A stretch of DNA of 31,688 nt, taken from the NCBI RefSeq assembly GCF_000003605.2, contig NW_003125890.1, positions 19,564 to 51,251 on the forward strand. Reading direction: 5' to 3'. Made by a program: the position numbers and the translations under genes. The DNA comes from Saccoglossus kowalevskii. Lineage: Eukaryota; Hemichordata; Enteropneusta; Harrimaniidae. Of the stretch, positions 27 to 4,181 are shown piece after piece (the stretch's first letter is position 1; every line of letters starts with the position of its first letter). The notes beneath the pieces are model-generated. The model saw nothing but the letters and a program-made list of their open reading frames with translations, did not search any database and had not been told where the DNA came from.

Positions 27-4181
<4,155 letters not shown>

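Follow-up and report, generated by a model that had tools for sequence, protein, structure and literature searches.

A gene for histidine ammonia-lyase (HAL) in the hemichordate Saccoglossus kowalevskii carries the triad Ala-Cys-Gly in place of the usual Ala-Ser-Gly. It was found in a stretch of 31,688 nucleotides, hereafter the window, and the cysteine observed there is real and natural. Judging from sequence, we give a probability of roughly three in four to the reading that the gene encodes the functional HAL of the animal, with its MIO built from cysteine. Such a reading is supported by an open gene, by the retention of the seven active-site residues that could be located and by a second locus whose triad is identical, as well as by exon matches to enzymes of the downstream pathway and by prokaryotic genes with Ala-Cys-Gly, some of them in hut clusters.

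Gene structure and active site

The HAL gene runs on the minus strand from an ATG at 8230 down to an exon ending at 27, and its 14 readable exons (Table 1) splice into a model of 404 open residues in which all introns are of the GT-AG type. To the left of the window the contig reads N at C1841:12000-19563 and 1-10000, and the remaining exons, with Glu414 and some 100 C-terminal residues, are expected there. Neither a stop nor a frameshift, the marks of a pseudogene that the preliminary description had proposed to look for, occurs across the 404 residues, and with zero lesions in 14 exons a pseudogene was rejected for the readable part. The triad is read on the minus strand from 3150 to 3142 as GCT TGT GGT, with the cysteine codon at 3147-3145, and corresponds to residues 148-150 of the model. 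Its exon is flanked by an acceptor TAAG and a donor GTAT and has neighbours in frame, so that the clean splice sites and frame first described for it were confirmed.

Table 1. Exons of the HAL gene and position of its triad in the window.
Feature	Positions	Strand	Basis
HAL exon 1, predicted start codon, MADQRDT	8210..8230	-	ATG then GT donor; matching ATG and donor at the colinear second locus
HAL exon 2	4110..4181	-	spliced model
HAL exon 3	3890..3965	-	spliced model
HAL exon 4, Tyr53 equivalent	3650..3716	-	spliced model and residue alignment
HAL exon 5, Ser-His substrate motif, His83 equivalent	3286..3449	-	model, alignment, PF00221 match
HAL exon 6, [15 protein letters not shown], triad exon	3049..3191	-	spliced model, PF00221 match
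Ala-Cys-Gly triad replacing Ala-Ser-Gly	3142..3150	-	sequence reading and alignment of active-site residues
HAL exon 7	2272..2319	-	spliced model
HAL exon 8, Asn195 equivalent	2087..2138	-	spliced model and residue alignment
HAL exon 9	1849..1944	-	spliced model
HAL exon 10, Gln277/Tyr280/Arg283 equivalents	1429..1583	-	model, alignment, PF00221 match
HAL exon 11	927..1007	-	spliced model
HAL exon 12, Phe329 equivalent	565..630	-	spliced model and residue alignment
HAL exon 13	212..290	-	spliced model
HAL exon 14, last readable	27..119	-	spliced model; later exons expected in N sequence

Among eight profiles, hutH was the best for the window protein (E 2.6e-153, residues 9-404). Its score of 511.2 bits, below the curated cut-off of 539.15, covers profile positions 2-388 of 506 and fits a protein without its last fifth, and the PF00221 exon matches of the gene exceed their cut-off. 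Among solved structures the closest match is 6v6h, likewise a histidine ammonia-lyase (E 2.2e-134), which we take to be the enzyme of T. cruzi, as we take 1gkm to be the HAL of P. putida and 7tqr to come from T. acidophilum. Alignment with 1gkm places Tyr53, His83, Asn195, Gln277, Tyr280, Arg283 and Phe329 at positions 59, 89, 203, 288, 291, 294 and 340 of the model, and all seven residues, which had been named at the outset as kept, are indeed retained. Asp145, beside the triad, is also present at model position 151. Moreover, the protein has the Ser-His pair (Ser88-His89, with His89 aligned to His83) that a 2024 paper gives as the substrate motif of HALs (PMC11432326). We treat Ala-Ser-Gly as usual but not required for a HAL, because five proteins with Ala-Cys-Gly pass the hutH cut-off (see below). 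The window gene has Ala-Cys-Gly within an otherwise canonical HAL sequence, the mark of an ACG-type HAL.

Other features accompany the gene in the window. Upstream of the HAL start codon the flanking sequence is duplicated in tandem (8332-10480 and 10669-13281), with pieces that are 89-97% alike and spaced by about 2.3 to 2.8 kb. At 2384-2979, the intron after exon 6 holds a minisatellite whose copies recur about every 32 bases, and an array that looks similar by eye is found at the second HAL locus described below (L006, 4690-6216). Nested inverted arms resembling a foldback element occupy 14339-16863, with three pairs (14339-14763 against 16437-16863) that are 92-94% complementary and a 50-base N gap between the arms. 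A dispersed repeat family of up to 11 copies, frequently spaced by about 157 bases, extends over 15879-31638. On the minus strand, an ORF at 27325-27696 has a CHCH domain (PF06747, E 8.3e-8) and presumably resembles an exon of MIA40/CHCHD4, and another at 18593-19051, which has no Pfam match, is to our eyes reminiscent of the tyrosine recombinase of a DIRS-like retrotransposon.

A second locus and the histidine pathway of the animal

When the genome was searched with PF00221, 11 candidates were scored and five exons matched, all of them within two HAL loci, that of the window and one other at G000:C4774:36388-37593. The preliminary description had suggested looking for a second HAL with Ala-Ser-Gly: a second HAL does exist, but its triad is also Ala-Cys-Gly, and a Ser-type HAL was not found anywhere in the genome by this exon-wise search of an assembly that is partly N and in which short exons could escape. 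Since a Ser-type HAL would be expected to surface through exons like 5 and 6, it is likely absent. The same description had left open two explanations for the cysteine, namely that it builds MIO or that the protein is a paralogue with changed maturation. The former is the best supported by the sequences, whereas the latter has lost ground, as the window gene looks like the HAL of the animal itself and not like an aberrant paralogue accompanying a standard HAL.

Exons 2-6 of the second locus are open, have GT-AG borders and contain the same stretch of exon 6, including the TGT codon for cysteine; the ATG and donor of exon 1 are likewise present. Comparison of the two loci gave 34 differences among 522 coding sites and 20 among 174 residues. 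At these 20 residues the commoner letter is found 10 times in the window copy and 8 times in the other, with 2 ties. Their introns differ at 78 of the 551 sites compared once a simple repeat was skipped (14%), and the exons have therefore diverged about half as much, which indicates that the coding sequence has been held back. The number of differing residues favours two paralogues over very diverged haplotypes. As both loci have the same triad, the cysteine is older than their split.

This second locus bears directly on the trivial possibility of a sequencing or assembly error. Although a single base (3146) separates TGT from the TCT of serine, a shared base-call error is very unlikely given that the same TGT recurs in a locus with 14% of its compared intron sites substituted, and an artefact, hardly credible on these grounds, was rejected. 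More weight was given to the idea of a degenerating or non-enzymatic copy, in which losing the serine would mean losing function. Some traits of the second locus speak for it, as residue 138, a proline in all 79 rows compared, is altered there, its dN/dS against the window copy is 0.73 (NG86) and exceeds 1 in exons 2-4, and its 3′ half falls inside an N block, the 3′ parts of both HAL genes being unreadable; that copy is thus not clearly healthy. On the other hand, decay is at odds with 14 window exons free of stops, frameshifts and bad splice sites, with the slower divergence of exons than introns, with the full set of located catalytic residues and with a cysteine older than the divergence of the loci, and we hold it to be unlikely.

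Matches to later enzymes of the route were also found. One urocanase exon match, at 186927 of C4774, is above the Pfam cut-off, and two more at 191239 and 193004 are pieces under the full-length hutU cut-off, whereas C1096 carries exon matches to FTCD. From these matches, the downstream histidine pathway appears to be at least partly present. The second HAL locus (36388-37593) and the urocanase exon matches (186927-193267) lie about 150 kb apart on C4774. On the mitochondrial contig of the same assembly (C4830, 17,037 bases), nine genes translated with code 5 contain AGA 5 times and AGG once, the contexts inspected in COX1 and CYTB fit ATA as Met, AAA as Lys and one AGA as Ser, and COX1 lies on the strand opposite to that of most genes. 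Judged by mitochondrial codes alone, this pattern might suggest a lancelet, perhaps of the Asymmetron group.

The cysteine form in prokaryotes and its origin in the animal

The serine of the triad had been regarded as near-invariant in the family, a view that did not survive a pattern scan of 84,980 prokaryote species, one genome per species. At least 117 loci from bacteria and archaea have the cysteine form, some of them in histidine-utilization clusters, a count of the cysteine form alone that gives no frequency relative to serine. In all 117 listed loci the ORF that contains the pattern is a HAL-family relative of the window protein (blastp; the worst E, 5.3e-8, belongs to a short fragment), and 107 of these ORFs have at least 380 residues. 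The Cys form is therefore widespread in bacteria and archaea. In 12 of the 117 listed loci hutU, hutI, hutG or a formimidoylglutamate deiminase is found nearby; no hut gene was seen in the other 105 within the stretch examined, which was of 8,000 bases at most and often short. For the trees and the table of active-site residues, 72 of these 107 longer ORFs were used, drawn from 80 of the at least 117 loci: 68 of the 72 retain all the residues checked, two differ at two sites and two are incomplete. Two HAL-like stretches stand side by side in each of two prokaryote contigs (L024 and L034). A scan of viral contigs gave 9 pattern matches, none of them a relative.

Six genomes of our own selection were searched with hutH. 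In five of them, the named strain of Aliidiomarina taiwanensis and four metagenome bins that may be incomplete, the single match is the gene with Ala-Cys-Gly, at 651 to 691 bits against the cut-off of 539.15. Four of these five have hut neighbours, and none was found in the stretch examined for a planctomycete (L048). The sixth genome, that of Maledivibacter halophilus (G002; L150, L156-L159), has five matches to the hutH family, one with Ala-Ser-Gly, one with Ala-Cys-Gly and three without the motif searched. The larger group of Ala-Cys-Gly proteins spans many phyla, and histidine is less sure as its substrate: six members were scanned (L020, L046, L035, L090, L051 and L049), of which five score above the NCBI subfamily threshold for HAL but just one above that of the hutH equivalog.

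These genes also help to weigh the proposal that the cysteine stays uncyclised and that the protein has a job without MIO, be it thiol chemistry, binding or regulation. Such relatives possibly exist, as the homologue on a Priestia megaterium plasmid (L139, 589-2127), annotated hutH, lacks the usual triad and the DLAP stretch and may be MIO-free. Nevertheless, the equivalents of Asp145, Asn195, Tyr280, Arg283 and Phe329 are retained in the window protein, and some prokaryotic Ala-Cys-Gly genes sit in hut clusters and are the sole hutH match of their genome; little credence is accordingly given to a MIO-free role.

Regarding origin, a tree of 29 rows, which include 20 of the 72 Ala-Cys-Gly ORFs as picked by us, placed the window gene as sister to 6v6h with support 100/100, and a tree of 82 rows grouped both likewise. 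In a tree of 22 rows with a provisional stretch of human HAL, to which the window protein is 62.6% identical, the human row was the closest neighbour of the window gene (96/89), followed by 6v6h. The triad columns themselves were kept in the tree alignments. The 82-row tree labels L139 as serine despite its missing triad, and the 29-row tree omits it; the triads of 6v6h and 7tqr appear as X in the PDB letters, and 7tqr was labelled serine by assumption. The distribution of serine and cysteine on the 29-row tree, which is unrooted and has several weak deep branches, needs five changes, at least four of them forced, and a constraint uniting all cysteine rows was rejected (p-AU 4.75e-76). From this placement, cysteine most likely replaced serine within the lineage of the animal, in an event separate from those in bacteria. 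Horizontal gain from a bacterium of the cysteine type was rejected, since the gene groups with 6v6h and not with the bacterial Ala-Cys-Gly branches.

Proposed mechanism and meaning

In the mechanism proposed, the Ala-Cys-Gly loop would cyclise on folding as Ala-Ser-Gly does, and the side chain of cysteine would then be lost by beta-elimination, with hydrogen sulfide leaving instead of water. The same MIO electrophile would result and deaminate histidine to urocanate. Formation of MIO, leaving group and enzymatic activity are all predicted here by analogy with the family. A more far-reaching version, in which serine and cysteine would be interchangeable MIO precursors repeatedly swapped by selection, in this animal too, and the cysteine form would have an advantage or control of its own, such as redox-sensitive maturation or release of hydrogen sulfide during cofactor formation, is rather doubtful.

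Cysteine has been linked to MIO before. An engineered P. putida HAL, S143C, was reportedly found in 1994 to mature to active enzyme, and it would share with the window gene the use of cysteine as precursor, but it is a laboratory mutant. In 2024, Brack et al. (ChemBioChem) are said to have described clusters with the triads ACG, TSG, SSG and CSG and to have found activity in HALs of the ACG type, which have the triad of the window gene in common. One natural prokaryotic counterpart is the HutH of Aliidiomarina taiwanensis (L037), with the same triad and active-site residues, hutU nearby and no other hutH match in its genome; however, it is 41% identical to the window protein and sits on a separate tree branch, which argues that the two swaps arose separately. 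The HAL of T. cruzi (6v6h) is closer, with 53% identity over 399 positions, the same active-site residues and the adjacent position in the tree, but its triad is Ala-Ser-Gly, and its crystal contains MIO (PMC12203737). The tripeptide Ala-Ser-Gly was called strictly conserved in a 2014 paper (PMC3903478), a statement contradicted by the at least 117 prokaryotic loci, whereas the 2024 paper cited above already describes it as present in most but not all such enzymes (PMC11432326). No report of an animal HAL with Ala-Cys-Gly appeared among the titles and abstract openings returned by a literature search whose coverage mostly excludes subscription papers.

The window gene may thus be seen as an ordinary HAL with a known, little-noticed triad, whose presence in an animal is possibly new. 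For annotation, a rule requiring Ala-Ser-Gly would wrongly discard enzymes with Ala-Cys-Gly, and the recurrent switches between serine and cysteine offer natural replicates for the effect of the swap on cofactor maturation. If the reading proposed here is true, at least one animal would depend on a cysteine-derived MIO for the breakdown of histidine.
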